In this document: in pieces, positions 3,773 to 15,486 of the stretch
Layout of the letters: each line of letters opens with the position of its first letter
How positions within the stretch are numbered: position 1 is the stretch's first letter
Assembly (NCBI GenBank): GCA_025358085.1
Contig: JANYKT010000043.1
Coordinates: forward strand, 1 to 64,000
Length of the DNA stretch: 64,000 bases
Direction of reading: 5' to 3'
From: Deltaproteobacteria bacterium
Lineage (GTDB): Bacteria > Myxococcota > Myxococcia > Myxococcales > 40CM-4-68-19
The notes under the pieces: generated by a model
What the model saw: only the letters and a program-made list of their open reading frames with translations
Database searches by the model: none
Told to the model about the DNA's origin: nothing
Program-made: the position numbers and the translations under genes

Positions 3773-4044
3773 CGTTTGGCGGCGCGCGTGGCAAGCCCCT
3801 TCATGCAGCGCGCGCGGCTCTCGATACCAGCGACAGCGCGATTGGCGGGCACCGATCATTCAATTTGTCCCGGGACCTGGTCGCGAAGAATGACTTGTCC
3901 GAGTTGATGAAAGTATAAGTACCGTGGGCGAATCAAGCGCGCGGGCAGCGTTGGCACCCGGCGGTGAATGAGCGTCAGCAGCGAGGGGGCAGATCCTTGC
4001 AATCCAATCTCTTTCCACCTTCGGGAATCGCGAGGACTGAGGCC
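3773..4044. other. Non-coding gap before patatin gene
   Basis: Together with the hairpin this is the only gap over 300 bases in the first 32 kb. No convincing gene is seen. It should hold the promoter of the patatin gene; a TATAAG-like hexamer lies near 3915, but no -35 box at proper spacing was found. Confidence 0.4.
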
Positions 4045-6444
4045 ATGTCCACCGAGGCCGGGGGCAAACGGCGGAAGTTGGGTCTCGCGCTTTCGGGCGG
4101 CGGTTTCCGTGCGTCGCTCTTTCATATCGGAGTGTTTCGCAGGCTGGCCGAGCTCGACCTGCTGCGCGACTTGTCCATCATCTCCGCAGTCTCGGGCGGA
4201 TCGATCGTCGCCGCGCACTATCTGCAGCTGCTGCTGCCTCGGCTTGAGCGGTCGCACTCGCTGACGATGGATGAATATGTAGCGCTGGTCAGGGACGAGC
4301 TCGAGCCTCACTTCCGGGAAGGCGTGGCCCGGAACCTGCGTACCCGGCTCTTCTGGAATCCCTTGCAGAACCTCCGGATGCTCGTCACGCGGCACACCAT
4401 GGGCGAACGGATGGCGGCTCTTTACCAGCGGCACCTCTATGCGGGGGCCGTTCCCGAGAGCCGGAGACGAAGCGGCCTCGCGCTGCGCGAGCTGCAATTG
4501 TCCGGCGTGAGCGACATCGAGACGCACAACGCCGACCCGGCCCATGACACCGTTCCCAAGCTCCTGATCAACGCCACGACTCTCAATACCGGACGGAATT
4601 TCCGGTTCACTGCCGCCGAGATCGGCGACCCCGTCCTCGGCTACATTCGATACGACGAAGCGTGGCAGGTCCTGCTGCACAAGAGGCTGCTCCGGGCCGC
4701 GCGCAAGGGGGCGAACCCGGCGGCGATGATGGCCATCCGGAACGCCGACCCGGAGTCAGCGGAGGGCGCCGCGCTGCGAGCCGGGAACCCGGCCGACCCC
4801 GTCACGCGGCCGACCAGCGAATGGACCCTTCGGTGGTATCGATATGCGCTCGGGGAGGCCGCGGCGCCCGAGGCCACGGCTGGGTTGCGCCAGCTGCTGG
4901 TGGTGAACGAGCAGGCGCGGTCGCGCCTGGTCAACGCGGAGTTCGAGCTGCTCCGGAACGCCAAGCTGCGAGCCTGGTATCTCAATGTCGGAGGCCTGCG
5001 AACGCTGCCCGCGCTGGGAGGCACCGCCACGGCGGATCACCACGCAATGTTCTGGAGCGCCATCGCCGACATCGACAAGGGCCTCGCGCAGGATCTGCAA
5101 CCTTTTCAGGCCAGCCCCGTCGAGCTCTTCAATATCATCCTCGACCTCTACCTTTTGCGCAGCGCAGACGCGTTCGCGTGGACCGTAGCCGAGGCACTCG
5201 GCAAGCTGCGGGTGCCCGAGGCCGTTGCGGCCTCGGCCAACTTCCCGCCGGTGTTCGCCCCCTACGTCTTTTACGACCTGTACGATTCGAATACCGCCCG
5301 GCGCCTGGCGTTGACCGACGGGGGGGTCTTCGACAACCAGGGAATCACCGCCTTGCTGGAGGAGGGCTGCACCCGAATCATCGCCAGCGACGCCGGTGGC
5401 GGGTTGGACTGCGACAAGAGCCCGGCCCTGAACCGGGCGGGAATGCTTGTCCGCATGAGCGAAGTGTTCATGAACGAGGTGCGGAGTCTGCAGGTCGCGG
5501 CGCTGCGCGAAAACGTCCGGGTCACGAACGCTAAAACCGGTCCCGCCGCGAGCGCTGCGCTGGCGACGCGGTACTTCGTCGAGCGGTCCGCGTTCTTCCA
5601 TGCGGGTTCCCACCCGGACGATGCGATTCCGCAGCCTCCGGGCCTGCCGCCGTATGTCAAGGATGAGCAGGTGATCGGGAAGCTCCGGACCGATCTCGAT
5701 GGCTTCTCCGGCCTGGAGATGGACGCGCTGATCCACCAGGGGTATCGGCTCGCCGACCGCTTCGTGCGCACGTACGGGCTTGTCTCCGGCGTCCCTCCGC
5801 TGCCCGCTTCTCCGGTTCCGCTACCGCTCGACGAGGAGCGGACGACGGCGGTGCTCGCGGTGGGCGCGAACCGGATGATGCGCGCCCTGCGGATCATCGA
5901 CTGCGACGTGCGCGGGACTGCCGCGCTGCTCCTCATCGGCCTGCTCGCGCCCCTGTTGGTGTTCGGGGTCTGGGCAATCGAGGGTCCACTCCTAGATACC
6001 GTGGCGGCCTTCGGGGGGTTCCTGCTGCGCGGGCTTCTCTGGCCTGTCTCCCCTCCCCTGGCTGTCCACGCAAGCACCCGGACGGCGGTCGGCGTGGTTC
6101 TAGGAATAGCGGCCATCTGGCTCCTTTGGGCGCGCGTAGAAACCGAGCTGTCGCGTCTCCTGAAGCCCCGGAATGCGGCACGCATCGGGTTGTGGCGCAA
6201 CCAGGTCTGGTGGCTTTTTTACCTGTCGCCGCTCGCGCTCGCGCTGTTGGCCAGCGCGGCGGCGCTCGTGAGCCATGCACTGTTTACGTTCATTGTCTCG
6301 CCGCTCAGCGGCTCCGAAAACGGCGGCAATGCGAAGATTAACGCGCTCGTCAAATCGAAGGGGACACCCGCCATGGCAGCGAGCGCAACCGAACGCACGA
6401 TAACCTCGTCTTCCACGGCGGAAGGTGGCGTCGCGCTGCTTTAG
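4045..6444 (+). CDS. Patatin-like phospholipase with C-terminal membrane segments
   Basis: About 799 residues. The N-terminus carries the patatin oxyanion-hole motif (LALSGGGFRASL), a VSGGS nucleophile motif about 45 residues later, and the catalytic-Asp motif TDGGVFDNQG near residue 435, so the Ser-Asp dyad of the family is present. The final ~180 residues hold three or four hydrophobic segments, implying anchorage in the inner membrane; this tail is unusual for the family. The frame is open back to 3964, but ATG 4045 is preferred because AGGACTGAGG lies just upstream and the patatin fold begins right after it. It probably hydrolyses lipid acyl esters; substrate unknown. Confidence 0.82.
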   Translation: MSTEAGGKRRKLGLALSGGGFRASLFHIGVFRRLAELDLLRDLSIISAVSGGSIVAAHYLQLLLPRLERSHSLTMDEYVALVRDELEPHFREGVARNLRTRLFWNPLQNLRMLVTRHTMGERMAALYQRHLYAGAVPESRRRSGLALRELQLSGVSDIETHNADPAHDTVPKLLINATTLNTGRNFRFTAAEIGDPVLGYIRYDEAWQVLLHKRLLRAARKGANPAAMMAIRNADPESAEGAALRAGNPADPVTRPTSEWTLRWYRYALGEAAAPEATAGLRQLLVVNEQARSRLVNAEFELLRNAKLRAWYLNVGGLRTLPALGGTATADHHAMFWSAIADIDKGLAQDLQPFQASPVELFNIILDLYLLRSADAFAWTVAEALGKLRVPEAVAASANFPPVFAPYVFYDLYDSNTARRLALTDGGVFDNQGITALLEEGCTRIIASDAGGGLDCDKSPALNRAGMLVRMSEVFMNEVRSLQVAALRENVRVTNAKTGPAASAALATRYFVERSAFFHAGSHPDDAIPQPPGLPPYVKDEQVIGKLRTDLDGFSGLEMDALIHQGYRLADRFVRTYGLVSGVPPLPASPVPLPLDEERTTAVLAVGANRMMRALRIIDCDVRGTAALLLIGLLAPLLVFGVWAIEGPLLDTVAAFGGFLLRGLLWPVSPPLAVHASTRTAVGVVLGIAAIWLLWARVETELSRLLKPRNAARIGLWRNQVWWLFYLSPLALALLASAAALVSHALFTFIVSPLSGSENGGNAKINALVKSKGTPAMAASATERTITSSSTAEGGVALL

Positions 6445-6461: not shown

Positions 6462-6889
6462 TCAGGCTATCCTCGTCCAATACCCTCTGACCTGCAGTTC
6501 CACGCTGCCGCCGCTGCTGACCGGTTGGTTGTAGCAAATGACCAGCGAGCCTCCGACCAGCGTGGTGGACGCCTGGGTGGCCCAGTCCGACACTCCTTTC
6601 CAGCTCCCGACCGGATCGGAGTCGTCGCGCAGCAGCACGCGGCCGCGGCCGCCCCGTTCCCATCCATGAGGAAAGCCTGCACCCAGATGGTTCCATTCGA
6701 ATCGATAGCAACTTCGGCGCGGTACTAACCGCTCGAGTCTACCCGGCGACTGGAAGACTCGAACCGAGCCCGAAGGGGACCAGTCGCTGCCCGACCCGCG
6801 CCACTACTGGAACCAGACGTCGTGGCCGCGACGAGGAGCGCGAGAGCGACGCTCGGGCAAAGAGATCGACGAATGACCGGACAGCTCAT
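6462..6889 (-). pseudogene. Broken small secreted protein gene, last member of the redox cluster
   Basis: The ATG (6889-6887) overlaps the Rieske stop codon as ATGA, and the first ~25 codons read as a signal peptide (RRSLCPSVALALLVAATT). The same frame then meets TAG at 6727-6725. Coding-looking stretches continue in alternating frames: one with SVRVFQSPG, one with EVAIDSNGTIWVQAF, and one from about 6655 with GSWKGVSDWATQ running to TGA at 6464-6462. At least two or three frame changes are needed, one in the C4 run at 6652-6655. The product was a ~140-residue exported protein of unrecognised family. Genuine decay and sequence error are both possible. Confidence 0.6.
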
Positions 6890-7329
6890 GCAATCTTGAT
6901 GGTGATCCCGGTCGCGTCCACGGTGGCGGGAAAGGTCGCGAGCGACTCAATCGCGGGGCCGCGCAGGACGGTCCCGGCGGTCGAGTACTCCGATCCGTGG
7001 CAAGGGCAGATGAGCTTTCCATCGCCCGCCTGGTAACCCACGAGGCAGTGCGCATGCGTGCAAACCGCCGAGAGCGCGGAAGCCGTGGAAACGCCGGTCC
7101 GGATGACGATATAGGAGCCGCCCGAGTTGACCTCGATCACTGCGGCGCCTCCTACCGACCCCAGCTTGGGAAATTGCGAGAACGACAACGTCGCCTGGCC
7201 GTTTTGCACGGCGACAGTTCCGTCGACGGACGATCCTGAGCTTCCCCCGCATCCGTTCAAGACCGCGGGAATCGCTCCCAGCGCCACCGGCGCCAGCACG
7301 AGAAATCGCCGCCTGGTCATCTCCTCCAT
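6886..7329 (-). CDS. Rieske [2Fe-2S] protein, Tat-exported
   Basis: 147 residues. The N-terminus MTRRRFLVLAP is a twin-arginine signal, followed by LNGC, a possible lipobox. The cluster ligands are Cys90-x-His92 and Cys108-x-x-His111. The extra Cys95 and Cys110 match the disulphide pair of bc1/b6f-type (high-potential) Rieske proteins. No transmembrane anchor beyond the signal and no cytochrome b gene nearby, so it is not an ordinary bc1 subunit. It sits 18 bases after the di-heme cytochrome gene, and its stop overlaps the start of the next, broken gene. Role inferred: electron carrier outside the cytoplasmic membrane. The start could also be the ATG at 7320. Confidence 0.88.
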   Translation of the reverse strand: MEEMTRRRFLVLAPVALGAIPAVLNGCGGSSGSSVDGTVAVQNGQATLSFSQFPKLGSVGGAAVIEVNSGGSYIVIRTGVSTASALSAVCTHAHCLVGYQAGDGKLICPCHGSEYSTAGTVLRGPAIESLATFPATVDATGITIKIA

Positions 7330-7347
7330 GAAACGCTCCTCTGTGGA

Positions 7348-8037
7348 TCAAAATCCGACGTAATCCAGGATGTCGGCGATCTCTTGGTCGCTCAGGACCT
7401 CTATCGAGTACAACGGCATGATACCGCCGATGTTGAAAAACTTTCCGTGCCGAACTTTTTCAACAGCCACCTGGCGCGCAATGGTGGGAAAGACGGCCAG
7501 CGTGTCCTCCGGAATGATGCTGACCTTGGTGGACAAACGCCCGTTCCCGGTATGCGGGTCCCCGTGGCAGCGGCGGCACGATCGATCGTAGACGTCCTTG
7601 CCGTGTGTCTTGTCGCCGGGCAGGTTGGTCAGAGCAGTCACGTTCTTCACCACGGTGAGCGGCAGCAGGGGCGAAGGCGCGTCGGGGCTATTTGCGGCCA
7701 GGTATTCGTACAACTCGCGGGCGCTGTCCTCGTCGGGAGAGAGCGCCCGGCCGCCCATGAACTCCGTCATGCAATAGTTGATGGCGTCGATCAGCCTCGT
7801 CTCGTATCCGCCCCACAAAGCCGGGCGATGCACGACGTTGTAGAGGTTGTAGCCGGGGTCGTTGCGAGCCAGCGGAGATTTCGCGACTTGATGGCAGGTG
7901 GAACAGGAGGCGGCGTTGAAGGGACTGGTCGACAGCGAAGAATTGGAGAACTGGCGCTCGCCGAGCGTCGCCGCCGGCACCGTCTGCGTTCCACCGCAGC
8001 CGAACAGGACCACCAATGCGGTGCAGGAAACTCTCAC
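7348..8037 (-). CDS. Di-heme cytochrome c, putative lipoprotein
   Basis: 229 residues from a GTG start that overlaps the upstream stop as GTGA. A short hydrophobic N-terminus ends in LFGCGG, a possible lipidation site. Two c-type heme sites are visible: CSTCH (residues 45-49) and CRRCH (154-158). Axial Met candidates are GGIMPLY (Met207) and Met90/Met94 in the first half. The two-half layout recalls MauG/cytochrome-c-peroxidase proteins, but the match is loose and I do not assign that enzyme. With the Rieske protein next door it probably forms a periplasmic or surface electron path. Confidence 0.87.
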   Translation of the reverse strand: MRVSCTALVVLFGCGGTQTVPAATLGERQFSNSSLSTSPFNAASCSTCHQVAKSPLARNDPGYNLYNVVHRPALWGGYETRLIDAINYCMTEFMGGRALSPDEDSARELYEYLAANSPDAPSPLLPLTVVKNVTALTNLPGDKTHGKDVYDRSCRRCHGDPHTGNGRLSTKVSIIPEDTLAVFPTIARQVAVEKVRHGKFFNIGGIMPLYSIEVLSDQEIADILDYVGF

Positions 8038-8693
8038 GGACCCACCACGAAAGAGTAGGGCACCGGCTGCACGTAGGGGCCCTGGTTGATGTCGCCGCGG
8101 AAGAAAATCGCTCGCTCGATGGTGAGGGTGAGCGTCTGGCCCTGCCGACCCGCCATCGCCTTCTTCCAGACGGCGGCGTCCGGCGTAAATGAAACCTGCG
8201 AGAGCATGGCGCTGTAGACGGCGTTCGTCTCACCCGCGTGCATGAATCTGAAGAAGTAGTTCTCGCCGGTGATGGCGGCACAGTGGGCCTCGGCCGGCTT
8301 GATCACCAGCGCCAACACCGACTCCAAAGACCTCGACCAGGCCGGCTGCCCGGGCTCGAGGCAGCTGAAGCGGACTCCGCGCTCGCGGTGCAGCGCGCAG
8401 GTGGAATGGACCGCCGAGAAGGTGAAGAGCGGAGGCTGCACCGGGTCGAGCTTGCTGCCCGGGGCGGGGGCGGAGAGCGAGGGAGATTGGCAGGCATCCG
8501 GCTTCACGGTCCCCGCGCTGTCCGCCTCGATGAATTTGACATAATTCTCGTCGCTGGTGATCGCGCCGCCATCCGCGCCTTCGCAATTGACGATGTATTC
8601 GTCCGCGCCCGCGATGCTGGACGCCTTCGAACCGCAGGCCGAGACCGCCAGTGCGAGGAGCAGCGGATGCAGGAAGCACGCGCCGATTTTCAT
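8034..8693 (-). CDS. Putative lipoprotein of unknown function in redox cluster
   Basis: 219 residues. The signal ends LAVSAC with the lipidated Cys at residue 20. The mature part has several further Cys residues (for example CALHRE and VRFSC) and a C-terminal half rich in beta strands. No family recognised. It begins seven bases after the YVTN-like propeller gene and overlaps the cytochrome c start by four bases, so it is almost surely co-translated with them. An adaptor or cofactor-holding subunit is possible but unproven. Confidence 0.75.
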   Translation of the reverse strand: MKIGACFLHPLLLALAVSACGSKASSIAGADEYIVNCEGADGGAITSDENYVKFIEADSAGTVKPDACQSPSLSAPAPGSKLDPVQPPLFTFSAVHSTCALHRERGVRFSCLEPGQPAWSRSLESVLALVIKPAEAHCAAITGENYFFRFMHAGETNAVYSAMLSQVSFTPDAAVWKKAMAGRQGQTLTLTIERAIFFRGDINQGPYVQPVPYSFVVGP

Positions 8694-8700
8694 GATCCCC

Positions 8701-9942
8701 TCAAGGGATGAACGCCATGCCGTCCGGAAAGACGGCGAGCGGAACAGAGGAGGTGGTGGTCAGCGCCTGCAGATCGAGGAAGGCAAACGACCCCGGCCCG
8801 ATGTGGTCACCCTCGCAGACGAGGTAGCCGATCTTTCCGTCGGAGGAGAGGTTGAGGATGTGCGCGTTGAAGCAGTCTGCGTGGGAAAAGAGGATTTGAC
8901 CCGCCGGAGGGGGGGCTTGTCCGGGCCCTCCGGATTTGTAGACGCGGACCGCGTCGCGGGTGGCGGTGTTCATGCACCCTTGCTCCGGCACGTAAACGAG
9001 GTAGCCGGGCGCGCTCCCCGGCGCCGGTGCAAAGGAGGCAAAGAGGGCACGCCCGCAGAGGGAGATGCTCCGGCCTGGATCGAACTTGTTGGCGACCGGA
9101 TCGAAGACATCGACGCCCCCTCCGCCCGTCGTGCCTCCCCCCGCCCCCAGGCTCGAGACCCAGACCGCGCCGTCCGTGCCGACGCCGAGCGCATACGGAC
9201 AACGGTTGCAGGTCGGCGTCTCAGTCTGGTTTGGCAGCAGGACCCGCTGCACCGGGAAAGCCGGGTTGGACACATCCACCACCGCGATTTCGTCGGTGAG
9301 GCAAGTCGCATAGAGCGTGCGCGCATCGGCGGAGAGCCGCGTGCCGTGCGAGGCTGGACAGATCGGCACCTTCTTTGTCACCGTCATCGTCGCCGTGTCG
9401 ATCACCGCCAGGTTCGAATCGCCCTGTCGCAGATCTCCCGCCTGAGCACCCTTCCCGAGCTTCACCAGATCGTAGTGGGTCACGTAAAGAGTCTTGCCGT
9501 CGGGCGAGGTGACCAGGTCGCCCGGATTGGGATCGACCTGCGCGAACGCCGCCAAAGTTCCGTCGCTGGTCCGGAGCTTGAGGACGAAGCCGGGGATGAT
9601 GCCTGTCCCATGGGCGCCGTGGGGGCCGGAGCCGGAGCCAGCCACCGCCTCGCTCAGATTGAGGTAGACGAACTGGCCGCTCGGATCAGGCGTGATGTGG
9701 TGCGGGCCTTCCAACTCGACGGGGTTGAAGCCGACCGGGATGGACCACTTCACCGTCCGCGTCACCGGGTCCACCGCCGAGAGCAGATCGCTGCCGTTGT
9801 CGGTGGTGAGGAAGAGTCCATGGAGCGGGCCGGGCGGAGAGGGATCCGACTTGTAGTCGGCCATGGTGAACGAAGGCTTGTCGGTCTTGCCGCACGCGAT
9901 CCCCATCGCTGCCACGATTGTCCAACGCCAGGAACGGCTCAT
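8701..9942 (-). CDS. YVTN-like beta-propeller lipoprotein
   Basis: 413 residues. The frame is open further upstream, but ATG 9942 overlaps the previous stop as ATGA and starts a clear export signal (SRSWRWTIVAAMGIAC) with a likely lipidated Cys. The body has repeated beta-propeller blades of the YVTN/40-residue type (SPDGKTLYVTHYD, SADARTLYATC, SSDGKIGYLVCEGD). A CNRCPY pair of cysteines sits mid-protein. Such propellers serve as scaffolds or as heavy chains of quinoprotein enzymes; here the neighbours are a cytochrome and a Rieske protein. No catalytic site recognised. Confidence 0.82.
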   Translation of the reverse strand: MSRSWRWTIVAAMGIACGKTDKPSFTMADYKSDPSPPGPLHGLFLTTDNGSDLLSAVDPVTRTVKWSIPVGFNPVELEGPHHITPDPSGQFVYLNLSEAVAGSGSGPHGAHGTGIIPGFVLKLRTSDGTLAAFAQVDPNPGDLVTSPDGKTLYVTHYDLVKLGKGAQAGDLRQGDSNLAVIDTATMTVTKKVPICPASHGTRLSADARTLYATCLTDEIAVVDVSNPAFPVQRVLLPNQTETPTCNRCPYALGVGTDGAVWVSSLGAGGGTTGGGGVDVFDPVANKFDPGRSISLCGRALFASFAPAPGSAPGYLVYVPEQGCMNTATRDAVRVYKSGGPGQAPPPAGQILFSHADCFNAHILNLSSDGKIGYLVCEGDHIGPGSFAFLDLQALTTTSSVPLAVFPDGMAFIP

Positions 9943-11240
9943 GATCGACTCCGTCTGCCCAGCGAGAAGGCAAAGAGCGTCAACAGCGCCCATCCATCGC
10001 TGCCGACACTTCCACAATGGGAGCCGTCTTTCGCTGTGGATGGGGCGCCGGCGTCGACTGGAGGACCGGCGTCTGACGCAGGGGCGATGTTGAGGACCTG
10101 CTGGATGCGCTGCCAGTGCGCACTGCAAGCGGTCTGCACCGAAGCGCAGGTCAGCGGTCCGAGGATCTGCGAAAACCTCATCAGCGGCTGGAACGTCTTC
10201 CCTCCGTCATCGCTGGTGCCGACGCTGAAGTTGTCGAGGAACGAGTCCCCGCAGGCGTAGATTCGCGTCGTGCCCGGACGCTGCCCGAGGCAGCGCAGGT
10301 GCGGCGCTGCCTGCTTGCTGAAGGTGGTCGCGCCGAGGGGGCGAACGTAAAGGCTTCCCCCGATCTGTCCTGCGTAGAGCGTGCCGTCCGACGCACGCAA
10401 GAACGATGTCAAGGCGCCGGAGACGGTGAGGGCGGTCTGCACGTTCTGTCCGTCGGTGGTGATGCCGATGGAGTCGTTCGTGCCGGAGACCAGCCGCAGG
10501 TAGACGGTGTTGGCATCGATCGGATCGACGGCGAGGATGGACGGCTGGGTTCCATTGGGTCCGGGGATGGTCGCGGGCGCCGACCAATGGACGCCGGAGT
10601 CGGCGCTGCGAAGCAGTACGGCGGTGCTGGTGGTGCTCCCCGTCTTATGGATCGCAGTGGCATAGATCACCCCTGGCGTTGATCGCGAGCTCTCGATTCC
10701 CGTCAGCAGGTCGACCGTCGCATAGAGCGGTGGCGTCCCGAAGGTCTTTCCACCATCGTGAGAGGCGACGGTGTTTGTTCCGTCAATGGTCGCGATGATG
10801 GCGAGCGCGAACGTCGGGTCGACCGGATCGGCGAAGATGTCGCTCACCACCGCTCCCGTGACCGAGCCGCCCGAGGTGGGCCAGGTGCAGCCCACGTCGT
10901 CCGAGCGGGTCAGGTTCACCGAGTCCGCGAGGACGGCGCCGTCGGCGGTGACCTGGTAATAGCTGACGTTGGCCGACGACAAGGATGCCGTGGACCCCGT
11001 CGTCACGTAGGGCTCGCAGACGTATCGCCAGGTCGCGCCGTCGTCCTCGGAAACAACCAGGCCGAAGTTCGATCCCAACAGGAGCCGGTGCGGCGCCGAC
11101 GCGGGAAGATGAATGCTCAACTCGTCCGGAAAGGCGCCGTTGGCGCGCGCGGGTGAGGCGCCCGGGAGCGCGATCGCAGCTGCAATAGCGATCGCGACGC
11201 CCGGGCTCGGGGGAAATGGACGCGCGCGCTCTCTGAACAA
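9939..11240 (-). CDS. Asp-box beta-propeller protein with MYXO-CTERM tail
   Basis: 433 residues. I choose TTG 11240 because AGGGGG lies seven bases upstream and the signal peptide (SPGVAIAIAAAIALPGAS) follows at once; upstream residues in the open frame look non-coding. The body has Asp-box blades (SEDDGATWRYV, RSADSGVHW, TSDDGGKTF). The C-terminus has a Cys motif (SHCGSVGS), a hydrophobic segment and RRSRS, the MYXO-CTERM pattern expected to be processed by a myxosortase and displayed on the surface. It lies 40 bases after the LVIVD gene and overlaps the next gene by four bases. Confidence 0.84.
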   Translation of the reverse strand: MFRERARPFPPSPGVAIAIAAAIALPGASPARANGAFPDELSIHLPASAPHRLLLGSNFGLVVSEDDGATWRYVCEPYVTTGSTASLSSANVSYYQVTADGAVLADSVNLTRSDDVGCTWPTSGGSVTGAVVSDIFADPVDPTFALAIIATIDGTNTVASHDGGKTFGTPPLYATVDLLTGIESSRSTPGVIYATAIHKTGSTTSTAVLLRSADSGVHWSAPATIPGPNGTQPSILAVDPIDANTVYLRLVSGTNDSIGITTDGQNVQTALTVSGALTSFLRASDGTLYAGQIGGSLYVRPLGATTFSKQAAPHLRCLGQRPGTTRIYACGDSFLDNFSVGTSDDGGKTFQPLMRFSQILGPLTCASVQTACSAHWQRIQQVLNIAPASDAGPPVDAGAPSTAKDGSHCGSVGSDGWALLTLFAFSLGRRSRS

Positions 11241-11280
11241 ATGAATGCCCCCTGTTTGCGTTCCTGCGACTTCAGCCTGT

Positions 11281-12852
11281 TTAGCCAACCGGAGCGCGGC
11301 GCCGGCGGCGAAGGAAAGTGAGCAGGCCCAGGAGAGCCGTGGCCCCGAGGCCGTCGATGCTGCTGCAGCCGCCGTGGGGGCGCAGGTTGACGCTGAGCTT
11401 GGCCACCTGGAAACCGTTGTCCTGGGTGGTGAACCAGACATCTCCCGAGGTCATGCCGCGATCCTTCGGGAAGCTGGGCTTGGCCGGCGCCCAGTCGACC
11501 GGGTGGTCGAAGCCAGCGCCTGCGAACGTCCAGTACTGCGAGCCTGGCAGCGTCTTCGTGCCCTGCGCGGGCGGCTTGTAGTAGGCGACCTCCTTCGGAT
11601 TCTTCGGGTCGCGAATGTCGAAGAATCGCATGCCGGCGCTGAAGCAGCTGCAAGCCGCGATGGTCGCGTCGTCGGCGTCGTCGACGTTGCAGTAGTGGCA
11701 GGAGTGGCCGAAGATCGGGTTTCCCGGTCCGAACGGCGTGGTCCCGGTCGTGGCGATGCTGGCGAGCGCCTGGGTGCAGTGCGCGACGTCGGACATCTCG
11801 AGTTGAAGCTTGGAGACGATGGTGGGCTTGGTTGGGTCGCTGATGTCGATGAGCCGCGGGAAGCCGTTGACCGACTTGCCCGCCGCGCAAGCCGCTTTCG
11901 CCGCACCTGCTCCTTCGAGGTTCGGACCGAGCTCATCGGTGAAGAGGATGTAAGGCTTTCCGGCGATGGTCGTCGGCAACGCGTTCTGCGCGATCACGCT
12001 GCCGTCATCCCAGGTGACCTGGCCGACGATACGGATGGCGGGGCTGGCCTTGCGCGACTGGATGTCGCTGACGTCGAGGATGAGCAGGCCGTTGGTCCCG
12101 GGGGCCTGGTTGCCGAAACCTCCGATGATGGTGACGTAGGCCGTGTTGCCGTCCTTGCTGAACTCGAGGTCGTGGAAGATGGCATTCGTTCCGGAGGGTG
12201 GCGTGTATTGCATGAACACCTTCGGATTCGTCGTATCGCTGGTGTCGACAGCGACGAGGCTCGGAGCGTTGGTGATGGTGGTGACGTAATAGGTGTTGCC
12301 GTCCGGGGCCCACTGGCCGGCGTGTCCCTTGCTTCCCGGCAGGACGACGCTCGACTTGAGCACGGGGTGGCGGCAGTCGCCGGAGATGTCGTAGATGGCA
12401 AAGCCCGGCCCCGGCTGCTGCGCCCCGCCAAGCAGCTGGCGCTTGGCGTTCACCTTGAGCGACTCCCACGGATCGATCATCGCGCCCGACGCGTCGGCAA
12501 GGTGGTCGGTGATGACCGGATGGGCGGGATCGGTGACGTCGACGACGACGGTGCCGGGCTGTACTGGCTTGGTGGAGTTGTTCGCCTGATCGTAGTACGC
12601 GCAGTTCTTCCACGCGGCGAGTTGCCAACTGGTACCTTCGCCCTGCACCTGCCCGACCAGATCCGCGTTGCACGTGACGGCGCTCTTGTTCGCACCGCTG
12701 GTCACCTCGGCCTGGGTGGTCTCGCCCTGCAGTCCGGTCTCGATCTTATCGGTGCTGCGGCAACTCGCTTTCGGAACAGCCTGGGCCGATGCGGCCACGG
12801 GCAGGAGCAAAGCAATCCATCCCAGACGATGCAACCCGCTCAATCCGCTCAT
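11281..12852 (-). CDS. LVIVD-repeat propeller protein with MYXO-CTERM tail
   Basis: 523 residues. Signal peptide (LGWIALLLPVAASAQA) with AAGGGG a few bases before the ATG. Repeats of the LVIVD type (VVVDVTDPAHPVI, LLILDVSDI, RLIDISDPTKPTIV, FFDIRDPKNPKEV) form a propeller. A Cys/His-rich insert (GHSCHYCNVDDADDA then CSCF) near residue 390 could bind metal, but has no CxxCH heme motif. The end (GGCSSIDG, hydrophobic segment, RRRRR) is MYXO-CTERM. First structural gene of the seven-gene cluster. Function unknown; surface scaffold is the simplest reading. Confidence 0.85.
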   Translation of the reverse strand: MSGLSGLHRLGWIALLLPVAASAQAVPKASCRSTDKIETGLQGETTQAEVTSGANKSAVTCNADLVGQVQGEGTSWQLAAWKNCAYYDQANNSTKPVQPGTVVVDVTDPAHPVITDHLADASGAMIDPWESLKVNAKRQLLGGAQQPGPGFAIYDISGDCRHPVLKSSVVLPGSKGHAGQWAPDGNTYYVTTITNAPSLVAVDTSDTTNPKVFMQYTPPSGTNAIFHDLEFSKDGNTAYVTIIGGFGNQAPGTNGLLILDVSDIQSRKASPAIRIVGQVTWDDGSVIAQNALPTTIAGKPYILFTDELGPNLEGAGAAKAACAAGKSVNGFPRLIDISDPTKPTIVSKLQLEMSDVAHCTQALASIATTGTTPFGPGNPIFGHSCHYCNVDDADDATIAACSCFSAGMRFFDIRDPKNPKEVAYYKPPAQGTKTLPGSQYWTFAGAGFDHPVDWAPAKPSFPKDRGMTSGDVWFTTQDNGFQVAKLSVNLRPHGGCSSIDGLGATALLGLLTFLRRRRRAPVG

Positions 12853-12930
12853 GAGGTTCCCCTTGTCGGCTCGGTATCAGCTCCGATGGTTGGGGACCGT
12901 AAAGGAAGCAAGCGAAGGGCGTCTTCCACG

Positions 12931-12954
12931 TTCTTGCAGGCTTGCGAGTTCTTG
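12931..12954. promoter_or_regulatory. Candidate AraC-type direct repeat upstream of the redox cluster
   Basis: TTCTTG occurs at 12931-12936 and again at 12949-12954, with a CTTGC between at 12941. It lies 80-100 bases upstream of the LVIVD start and between it and the AraC gene. AraC-family proteins bind direct repeats, so this could be the operator. The evidence is only repetition and position. Confidence 0.25.
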
Positions 12955-12971
12955 ATCGCGGCGGCGTATTT

Positions 12972-13880
12972 CTACGCGCCTGCGTTCCGGTATGCGCCAG
13001 GGCTGACCTTCGCGATGCGGCGGAACACGGTGGCGAAGTGGCTCTGGCTTGCGAACCCAAGCCGCAGCGCGATCTCGGTGATCGAAAGCTTCGGGTCACC
13101 GAGAAGCAGCTTTGCGCGCGCGATCTTCTGGCGCAGGACGTATTGATGGGGCGCGAAGCCGGTGCTCTGCTTGAAGCGGCGGAGGAAGAGGAACGGGTCC
13201 AGCTGCGACAGGTCCGCCAGGCTCTGGAGCCGCAGGCTGGTGTCGACGTTATCGCCGATGAATTGCAGCACGCGACTGAGGACCTGGCTGGAGAGCCCGC
13301 CGCTCTTGGCCGGCCCCTGCCGGACTTCCGAGTACCGGCGCGCCAGGTGCGCGGCGAGCGCGGCGCCCATCGTCTCTCCGTAAAGTGGCCCCGCCGGGCT
13401 CCCGGAGCGGATATCGTCTTCGAGGGCCAGCACGCTCTGCGCGATCCAGGGGTCGTCGATGCCGAGGGCGGGGCGGAGCTCTACGTGAGTCTCCCTTGGG
13501 GCGACCGCCGCCAAAAGCTCCGGGGCGATCTCGACGAGGATGTTTTCCGCGGAGGAGAACCAACGTCCGGCGTGAGGGGTTCGCGCGGAGAGGACGTGGA
13601 TACCTCGCGTGCCGATCCGAACCTTTTTCCAACCCGCGCCAGCCCATCGCCACTCGCTCTCCATCGGCTGCGTCAGATGGAGGATCACCACATGCTTGAG
13701 CAGGTAGCGCTCGGAAAACTCTCCCGCACCGCCGAAGACGCGCTCCAGCCGGATGCCGTTCCAGCGATCCCCACTCGAGAGCCCGAGTCCGGCGGATTCC
13801 CGGAGCAGCCTCCGGCCCCCCGAGTCGACCTCGACGATTTCGATGTCCTTGTCACGCACCCTCATCGACGTCGCACCCAT
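12972..13880 (-). CDS. AraC-family transcriptional regulator
   Basis: About 302 residues from ATG 13880, chosen because a G6 run stands about eight bases upstream; the frame is open to 13943. The C-terminal ~100 residues are an AraC/XylS double helix-turn-helix: first helix pair at SLADLSQLDPFLFLRRF, and the family signature around ITEIALRLGFASQSHFATVF. The N-terminal part is a sensor domain with no ligand evident. It is on the same strand as, and 119 bases upstream of, the redox/propeller cluster, so it is the natural candidate to control it. Confidence 0.88.
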   Translation of the reverse strand: MGATSMRVRDKDIEIVEVDSGGRRLLRESAGLGLSSGDRWNGIRLERVFGGAGEFSERYLLKHVVILHLTQPMESEWRWAGAGWKKVRIGTRGIHVLSARTPHAGRWFSSAENILVEIAPELLAAVAPRETHVELRPALGIDDPWIAQSVLALEDDIRSGSPAGPLYGETMGAALAAHLARRYSEVRQGPAKSGGLSSQVLSRVLQFIGDNVDTSLRLQSLADLSQLDPFLFLRRFKQSTGFAPHQYVLRQKIARAKLLLGDPKLSITEIALRLGFASQSHFATVFRRIAKVSPGAYRNAGA

Positions 13881-14061
13881 GCTGCTCGCCCCCCCGAGGG
13901 TGAGAGCGATTACACGCAACCTTTTTGCCGAGAGGATCGTCAAGCCGCAGCGCGTTGTGGAAGCACCGTCCCGGCGGCCAGGCCTCGGTCGGACGTCCGA
14001 CGCGCAATCATCAAGGCTCGCGCACTATGGCCCAGGCCGCCACGCTGCCGAAAGGGTACGT

Positions 14062-15486
14062 ATGCGAATTCATTCCATCCTCGTCGTCGCCGCTCTCCTC
14101 CCCGCAGCCGCCCTGGCGCTCCCGCGCGGCGTGCAGCCCATGCGCGCGCCCCGCGCTGAGCAGAGCCAGATGATCGGGACCATCTCCAGGGCGGCGGCCC
14201 CGGCAAACGCGCTGCTCAACTATTACGGCGGCCACGTCCTCTCTAATGTCCATATCGTCCCGGTCCTCTGGGGCGCGAACGTTCCGTCCGAGGTCGCGAA
14301 TGGCATCGGGCCGTATTACGCCGCCATTGCCGACAGCACCTATTTCGATTGGCTGGCCGAGTACGATACGGACCTCACCGCATTCGGCGGAGAGACCGGC
14401 ACCGGCCAGCACATCGGCCGTGGCACTGCCGAGGCAACCATCACCATTCATCCGTCGATGATCTCGACCAGCATCACCAATGATCAAATCGTCTCCGAGC
14501 TGCAGGCGCAAATCAACGCCGGCCACCTGCCCAGGAACAACGCCAATTCGCTCTATATGTTTCACTTCCCGGCCGGAATGAAGATCACGATGCCGGACGG
14601 CAACGGCGGCACCGCGGGCTCGTGCACGCAATTCTGCGCCTATCACAACACCATCGCCGCGAGCCCGGTGAACATCTTTTACGGCGTCATGCCCAACGTC
14701 ACCAGCGACGGCTGCGAGGCCGGCTGCGGCCCCATCGGTGGCGGCTTCAATAACACCACTTCGGTCGCTTCTCACGAGCTGATTGAGACCGTCACCGACG
14801 CTGAAGTCGGCCTCGCGCAGAACAGCGCGCCGCCGCTGGCCTGGTACGATCCGCAGGGCTCGAACGGGGAAATCGGTGATATCTGCAATGGCGATCAGGG
14901 CACGGTCAGCTCGCACGGCCAGAGCTGGACGGTGCAGAACGAGTACTCGAACAGCAAGGGTACCTGTATCGCCAGCTCCCAGGCGCATGACTTTGCGTTG
15001 CGCATCGCCCCGGGCAACCTGGCGCTCGCCGCAGGCGCGAGCGTGAAGTACTCGGTCACCGCGGTGGGCATCGGCGGCGGGGCCGGCACAATCACACTCG
15101 ATAGCAGCGGCTTTCCGGCCGGCCTGACCGCCTCGCTCAACAAGACCAGCATCTCCATCGGCGACACCGCGACGCTGACCGTGTCGGCGACCACCGCCGC
15201 GGCCAACGGCGCCGCCGTCTTCAGCATTCACGGCACCGCCTCGGGGATCACCAACCGGGCCAAGGGCACGGCCACTGTCTCCGGCGGCGGCACCGGCGGC
15301 GGCGGCCCCGGTACCTGCCCGGCTGGCACCATCAATGTCGGCGGCGTCTGCGTCCCGATTCCCGCCGGCGGCGGGGGCTGCTCCACCACCGGCTCCAGCT
15401 GGCTCGCGCTGCTCGGGCTCGGCGCCGTGCTCTTCGCGCGCCGCTCGCGTCGCCAGCATTCAAGTGCGAGCCATTCAATCCGGTAG
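14062..15486 (+). CDS. EXORDIUM-like secreted protein with MYXO-CTERM tail
   Basis: 474 residues from ATG 14062 (AAAGGG eight bases upstream; the open frame extends earlier but looks non-coding). Signal peptide IHSILVVAALLPAAALA. The central part (LNYYGGHVLSNVHIVPVLWG, SVASHELIETVTDAE, NEYSNSKGTC) resembles the EXORDIUM / phosphate-induced-protein-1 family, known from plants and found in bacteria; the HELIE stretch could hint at a metal site but is not a proven protease motif. An immunoglobulin-like beta domain follows, then a Gly-rich linker and a MYXO-CTERM end (GGGGCSTTGSSW, hydrophobic segment, RRSRR). Divergent from the AraC gene. Confidence 0.8.
   Translation: MRIHSILVVAALLPAAALALPRGVQPMRAPRAEQSQMIGTISRAAAPANALLNYYGGHVLSNVHIVPVLWGANVPSEVANGIGPYYAAIADSTYFDWLAEYDTDLTAFGGETGTGQHIGRGTAEATITIHPSMISTSITNDQIVSELQAQINAGHLPRNNANSLYMFHFPAGMKITMPDGNGGTAGSCTQFCAYHNTIAASPVNIFYGVMPNVTSDGCEAGCGPIGGGFNNTTSVASHELIETVTDAEVGLAQNSAPPLAWYDPQGSNGEIGDICNGDQGTVSSHGQSWTVQNEYSNSKGTCIASSQAHDFALRIAPGNLALAAGASVKYSVTAVGIGGGAGTITLDSSGFPAGLTASLNKTSISIGDTATLTVSATTAAANGAAVFSIHGTASGITNRAKGTATVSGGGTGGGGPGTCPAGTINVGGVCVPIPAGGGGCSTTGSSWLALLGLGAVLFARRSRRQHSSASHSIR

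Follow-up and report, generated by a model that had tools for sequence, protein, structure and literature searches.

Gene content of the cluster

The stretch of DNA analysed here (the window; 64,000 nucleotides of contig JANYKT010000043.1, from a Deltaproteobacteria bacterium) carries on its minus strand, downstream of a gene for an AraC-family regulator, six intact genes for exported proteins and one disrupted gene. In transcription order these encode an LVIVD propeller, an Asp-box propeller, a YVTN propeller, a lipoprotein, a diheme cytochrome c, a Rieske protein and a small exported protein whose gene is broken. We tentatively read the cluster as encoding an oxidoreductase anchored in the cell envelope, at the outer membrane, in which a metal propeller is coupled to a diheme cytochrome with a cysteine-ligated heme. 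Its features are as follows.

12972..13943, minus strand: AraC-family regulator (PF12833, HTH_18, E 6.9e-20), 119 bp before the LVIVD gene
11281..12852, minus strand: LVIVD-repeat exported propeller with a Cys-helix-Arg, MYXO-CTERM-like tail, accessory (PF08309, E 1.2e-7)
9939..about 11240, minus strand: Asp-box/BNR propeller with a MYXO-CTERM-like tail and a probable TTG start (PF02012, E 1.9e-5, below the curated cut-off)
8701..9942, minus strand: YVTN propeller lipoprotein with seven blades, proposed as the catalytic, metal-binding subunit (TIGR02276, beta_rpt_yvtn, E 2.1e-9)
9697..9702, minus strand: codons of YVTN His81-His82, PHH motif (conservation alignment of 33 sequences)
9610..9621, minus strand: codons of YVTN His108-x-x-His111, GPHGAHGTG motif (same alignment)
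8034..8693, minus strand: lipoprotein of no known family (no Pfam or NCBIfam match)
7348..8037, minus strand: diheme cytochrome c lipoprotein with two CXXCH motifs (PF13442, Cytochrome_CBB3, E 1.1e-11; Cytochrom_C; PF21342, E 4.2e-4, below its cut-off)
7891..7905, minus strand: cytochrome heme 1 CXXCH, CSTCH (translation and alignment)
7771..7773, minus strand: cytochrome Cys89 codon, predicted distal ligand of heme 1 (conservation and profile alignment)
7564..7578, minus strand: cytochrome heme 2 CXXCH, CRRCH (translation and alignment)
6886..7329, minus strand: Tat-type, lipobox-bearing Rieske protein with a disulphide pair (PF00355, E 3.4e-11; b6f-type NCBIfam model, E 3.6e-19)
about 6470..6889, minus strand: disrupted small exported gene 7 (six-frame reading)

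An initial annotation of the locus had described this tightly packed set of six intact and one broken exported genes, and open reading frames, coordinates, overlaps and gaps agree with it, as do profile searches with the families it had named (only the BNR match falling below a curated cut-off). Four-base ATGA-type overlaps occur at the Asp-box/YVTN, lipoprotein/cytochrome and Rieske/gene 7 junctions, with gaps of 7 bp between YVTN and lipoprotein and 18 bp between cytochrome and Rieske. Given this tight spacing and these overlaps, cotranscription beginning at the LVIVD or Asp-box gene is likely. Gene 7, which overlaps the Rieske stop codon, is broken by an in-frame stop and a frame change. 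The Rieske protein has both cluster boxes and the extra cysteine pair (CTHAHC...CPCH), as well as a Tat (twin-arginine) signal and an LNGC that resembles a lipobox; the initial annotation had called it bc1-type with the disulphide pair. No cytochrome b or quinol-oxidase gene lies within the cluster.

Tails of the MYXO-CTERM type (a cysteine, a hydrophobic helix and an arginine-rich end) are visible on the LVIVD and Asp-box proteins of the window and are clear in most Asp-box relatives, but neither window protein matches TIGR03901 at E<=0.1. The AraC gene does lie upstream on the same strand, but none was found at the other loci examined. Divergent from it, positions 14062-15486 (plus strand) encode an exported protein with a MYXO-CTERM-like tail (TIGR03901, E 0.002) and no Pfam match; convergent with the cluster, positions 3964-6444 (plus strand) encode a patatin-like phospholipase with C-terminal membrane segments.

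Conservation of the core across Myxococcota

Profile searches found the YVTN family in 79 of 195 Myxococcota genomes, including nearly all of those in one large family, and the cytochrome family in 77 of 189 genomes of the phylum. A cytochrome gene lies directly downstream of 77 of the 84 YVTN-family genes, on the same strand and at a median gap of 20 bp. Among 33 loci examined, the cytochrome was present at 27, the lipoprotein at 24 and an Asp-box gene nearby at 18, the commonest arrangement being Asp-box–lipoprotein–YVTN–cytochrome. The core in families f7, f13 and f25 is lipoprotein–YVTN–cytochrome, and a search with the lipoprotein reached distant relatives in a family (f4) that by gene content looks like Myxococcaceae, where the neighbourhoods form the four-gene operon with Asp-box. 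Most YVTN, lipoprotein and cytochrome members carry lipobox-like signals. Because order and adjacency are kept in dozens of genomes, the linkage goes beyond chance, and the scattering of genes in relatives that the initial annotation held would speak against a joint system is not seen for the core. Nearly every genome of a large myxobacterial group retains the operon. The group seemingly includes genetically tractable species, so that deletion and purification should be feasible.

This linkage bears on the idea that the products are surface proteins for adhesion, predation or recognition without a joint redox role, the cytochrome being a neighbour by history. MYXO-CTERM-like tails and Asp-box propellers fit surface display, and the lipoprotein diverges fast, its syntenic relatives being 20-28% identical. 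However, in 73 of 79 genomes the YVTN and cytochrome genes have remained neighbours, and no other members are as well conserved; we consider this explanation very improbable.

A close relative of the window locus (L001; JANXPQ010000052.1, an 11-kb contig found by a DNA scan) has the order Asp-box(end)–YVTN–lipoprotein–cytochrome–Rieske and shares the last four genes at 70-80% identity (lipoprotein, 76%). No counterpart of gene 7 follows its Rieske gene, and it too holds no cytochrome b gene. Although the record is labelled Betaproteobacteria, the contig is likely to be a mis-binned myxobacterial one, since its Asp-box protein has a MYXO-CTERM-type tail and the YVTN family is absent from 40 relatives of the genome that holds it. 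No match to the YVTN protein was found in plasmids.

The Rieske gene is a lineage-specific addition, occurring within the cluster only in the window and L001. In the close relative G001 an unrelated gene follows the cytochrome instead, and the nearest other Rieske protein (49% identical, G006) is encoded at an unrelated location. The co-occurrence that the initial annotation had proposed as a check, of the lipoprotein with both cytochrome and Rieske genes in Myxococcota, was found with the cytochrome at conserved loci, but with Rieske at those two alone.

Relatives of the LVIVD protein at 42-63% identity occur only in G002 (eight matches) and G118 among 183 genomes (E<=1e-25). Some Myxococcaceae-like operons have LVIVD-like genes nearby, but these reach only E about 1e-9, and we did not treat them as orthologues. 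LVIVD genes pair with Asp-box genes at several G002 loci, one pair (L151) lying beside a five-CXXCH cytochrome c554-like protein. The pairing beside other multiheme cytochromes makes LVIVD and Asp-box a surface module that goes with more than one set of cytochromes; in the window locus it is combined with the YVTN core and Rieske. The window Asp-box protein is 26-31% identical to those of the Myxococcaceae-like operons, and Asp-box proteins have six conserved cysteines. What stands of the proposed seven-gene system is a conserved envelope redox core of lipoprotein, YVTN propeller and cytochrome, to which most members of the large family add Asp-box; the seven genes are not one unit, Rieske and LVIVD being accessory.

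Several other loci deserve mention. L151 and L152 of G002, where small YtkA-like exported proteins accompany the LVIVD/Asp-box pairs, form a family of related surface redox clusters that has expanded. In G017 the gene next after the cytochrome gene (L062:9556-15696) encodes an exported protein of 2046 aa whose N-terminus is in the 'AH.NG.P' style of Asp-box proteins. The core copy at L091 (G070) has lost its heme 1 motif (ATCH without the first cysteine) and has a disrupted YVTN frame; it adjoins genes that, as read from their translations, resemble a cbb3 oxidase operon.

Propeller histidines and the cytochrome cysteine

The YVTN protein (413 aa) ends with its propeller, in which eight histidines are invariant across 13 members. 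Across 33 members H81 and H199 are kept in 100%, H361 in 94%, H156 in 91%, and H82, H108 and H111 in 88%. A repeat count aided by predicted local strands gives seven blades and places all eight histidines in DA or BC loops, and hence on one face. In four divergent members (family f9) H82 and H108 are replaced by Glu and H111 by Met, with H156 replaced by Cys in three of the four; such swaps between metal-ligand residues are as expected of a metal site. Cysteines C195/C214 and C357/C376, at equivalent places in blades 3 and 6, look like disulphides. The YVTN protein probably holds a metal, with copper as our best guess; NosZ, SBP56 and AztD are known propellers that have sites of this sort. Divergent members with Glu, Met and Cys in place of conserved histidines lie at L068-L071 (genomes G019, G024 and G028); another diheme cytochrome and a CXXCH protein adjoin those at L068 and L070, the CXXCH copy at L068 has no Pfam match, and YtkA-like proteins lie near L068.

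The cytochrome (229 aa) combines an N-terminal SoxA/TsdA-like domain with a C-terminal class I cytochrome domain. PF21342, the SoxA/TsdA domain, matched 9 of 13 members, and profile–profile comparison with sixteen PF21342 proteins from Myxococcota (probability 96.8) aligned Cys89 with the TsdA cysteine that serves as a ligand of heme 1 (PMC4423706, PMC9562282). Cys89 is present in all 27 cytochrome members, and heme 1 would thus have His/Cys ligation; heme 2 probably takes Met207 (GGxMPxYS) as its second ligand. The start of the protein is CCP/MauG-like, with PF03150 matched by 13 of 13 members and MauG/CCP chains also matched. In the lipoprotein, Cys37, His137 and Trp176 are invariant, and no Pfam match was found except DUF5620 at E 0.13 in one member.

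The initial annotation had suggested a propeller-based dehydrogenase with a cytochrome partner, a plausible idea that is sharpened by the histidine pattern and the SoxA/TsdA-like domain. In the oxidoreductase that we favour, three co-produced lipoproteins (YVTN propeller, small lipoprotein and diheme cytochrome c) would form the core complex. The propeller would bind a metal through the conserved histidines of one face and there oxidize or reduce a small substrate, with electrons passing from that face to the Cys-ligated heme 1, on to heme 2, and beyond it to the Tat-exported Rieske lipoprotein in the window lineage or to a soluble carrier. The two propellers with MYXO-CTERM-like tails, Asp-box and LVIVD, may position the complex on the cell surface or dock it there. 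If so, a cell-surface redox activity would be added to organisms studied mainly for motility, predation and development.

Several observations weigh against this proposal. H380 is kept in only 76% of the 33 members, and no member of this cytochrome family adjoins the divergent clade with altered histidines, where two loci have other diheme cytochromes in its stead. AlphaFold2 models from two-sequence alignments were unusable (mean pLDDT 41.5 for YVTN and 37.6 for the lipoprotein), so that the clustering of the histidines rests on repeat anatomy, and a PDB search with the YVTN protein returned generic YVTN relatives only. The window cluster has no copper chaperone. Finally, the substrate Arg at Cys minus 4, invariant in TsdA and SoxA, and the Ser at Cys plus 4, invariant in TsdA (PMC4423706), are replaced in the family by Ala and Phe, which argues against thiosulfate as substrate.

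The main rival, possible but unlikely in our estimate, is metal handling at the surface. The His-rich propeller would bind copper or zinc for uptake, storage or detoxification, while the cytochrome sets the redox state of the metal or modifies a partner; alternatively, zinc would be handed over in the manner of AztD. Modification of a partner is known from MbnH, a diheme protein that modifies MbnP. Such a role is consistent with the His-rich propeller, the CCP/MauG-like start, the invariant Trp and His of the lipoprotein and the YtkA-like proteins near related loci, as well as with the precedent of AztD, a propeller that binds zinc and has a conserved disulphide (PMC6689063), whose NCBIfam model weakly matches 5 of 13 YVTN members. 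However, the cluster contains no transporter, metallophore or metal-responsive regulator, and the lipoprotein, when compared with MbnP by way of known families, scores above cut-off to no Pfam family.

The eight conserved histidines also bear on the idea of a general outer-membrane conduit passing respiratory electrons to acceptors outside the cell, in which they would be needless because the propellers would serve as scaffold only. The LVIVD/Asp-box pair beside multiheme cytochromes in G002 and the apparent cbb3 oxidase genes next to the G070 core copy would suit a conduit, but the cluster has only two hemes and no porin-cytochrome barrel, and the system is near-universal in a family resembling the aerobic Myxococcaceae. 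We regard a conduit as rather improbable.

Comparison with known systems

The initial annotation had put the system forward as undescribed, and we found no description of this cluster in the literature searched, which left most subscription journals outside its coverage. Two candidate matches, the M. xanthus copper operon curA (PMC3707914) and the oxygen regulon NmpRSTU (PMC11841059), turned out to be different gene sets. The folds are all known ones. What seems to be undescribed is their combination and how nearly universal it is in a major group.

The Rieske protein shares both cluster boxes, the disulphide cysteines and the Tat signal with those of cytochrome bc1 and b6f, from which it differs in having no cytochrome b in its cluster and a short, lipobox-bearing N-terminus. 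Quinohemoprotein amine dehydrogenase and the beta and gamma subunits of hydrazine synthase likewise have a YVTN propeller and a diheme cytochrome encoded together; weak profile matches to them arise because the YVTN repeat is held in common, and the window has neither a CTQ subunit nor a hydrazine synthase alpha subunit. With MauG, MbnH and bacterial cytochrome c peroxidases the cytochrome shares the start 'LG.qLF.dp.LS....SCaTCH' and two hemes, but it has about 230 residues, not 300 or more, and the alignment is limited to the first ~30.

NosZ (CuZ), including the lactonase-type L-NosZ, resembles the YVTN protein in having seven propeller blades, two consecutive histidines and more histidines contributed by several blades, the NosZ site having seven ligands (PMC11573801). 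Membership was rejected, as the YVTN protein has no C-terminal CuA cupredoxin domain and scores 19.2 bits against an L-NosZ cut-off of 700. The window's own genome holds a separate NosZ-like gene (G000:C26:2249-3241, L122; L-NosZ profile E 1.2e-45, below cut-off).

With TsdA and SoxA the cytochrome shares the N-terminal CXXCH domain, the aligned heme-ligating cysteine and a class I second domain. It differs in being a lipoprotein partnered with propellers and with no Sox genes, and identity as a thiosulfate dehydrogenase (TsdA) was rejected on the loss of the thiosulfate-binding Arg and Ser. Short PF21342 cytochromes of Myxococcota at L101-L107 and L110 keep the heme-ligating cysteine, but Met stands where the catalytic Arg would be; they constitute another uncharacterised Cys-ligated group.

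The propeller likewise recalls SBP56/methanethiol oxidase (MtoX, SELENBP1), with seven blades, HH and HxxH motifs and acidic residues. PF05694 (SBP56) does not match the window's YVTN protein, and the 4 of 13 YVTN members that it does match stay below the curated cut-off (best E 0.029). Profile–profile comparison with SBP56 members gave a probability of 94, placing His81 on the first His of HxxH and His361 on the C-terminal PHQ, two of the copper-site histidines of SBP56; although the YVTN protein has both motifs, its HH is thus paired with the HxxH of SBP56 and not like with like. Unlike the SBP56 spacing, HH and HxxH lie 26 residues apart inside one blade. Bacterial mtoX sits with genes for SCO1/SenC and a MauG-like diheme cytochrome (PMC5739008, PMC10362175), whereas the window cluster has no SCO1 neighbour, its cytochrome is SoxA/TsdA-like and only 229 aa long, and its propeller is a lipoprotein.

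Our best guess for the chemistry is sulphur, favoured only by resemblance: the relatives closest in mechanism to the two catalytic parts, TsdA/SoxA and the copper thiol oxidase SBP56, are sulphur enzymes. A more specific proposal, which we hold to be doubtful, is a novel family of metal (copper) propeller oxidoreductases, anchored at the surface and acting on a thiol or another sulphur substrate through a dedicated Cys-ligated diheme cytochrome, near-universal in one large myxobacterial family and with a divergent clade in which His has given way to Glu, Met or Cys. Coupling a probable new propeller metal site to a Cys-ligated heme would be rare, such a combination being known chiefly from sulphur enzymes.

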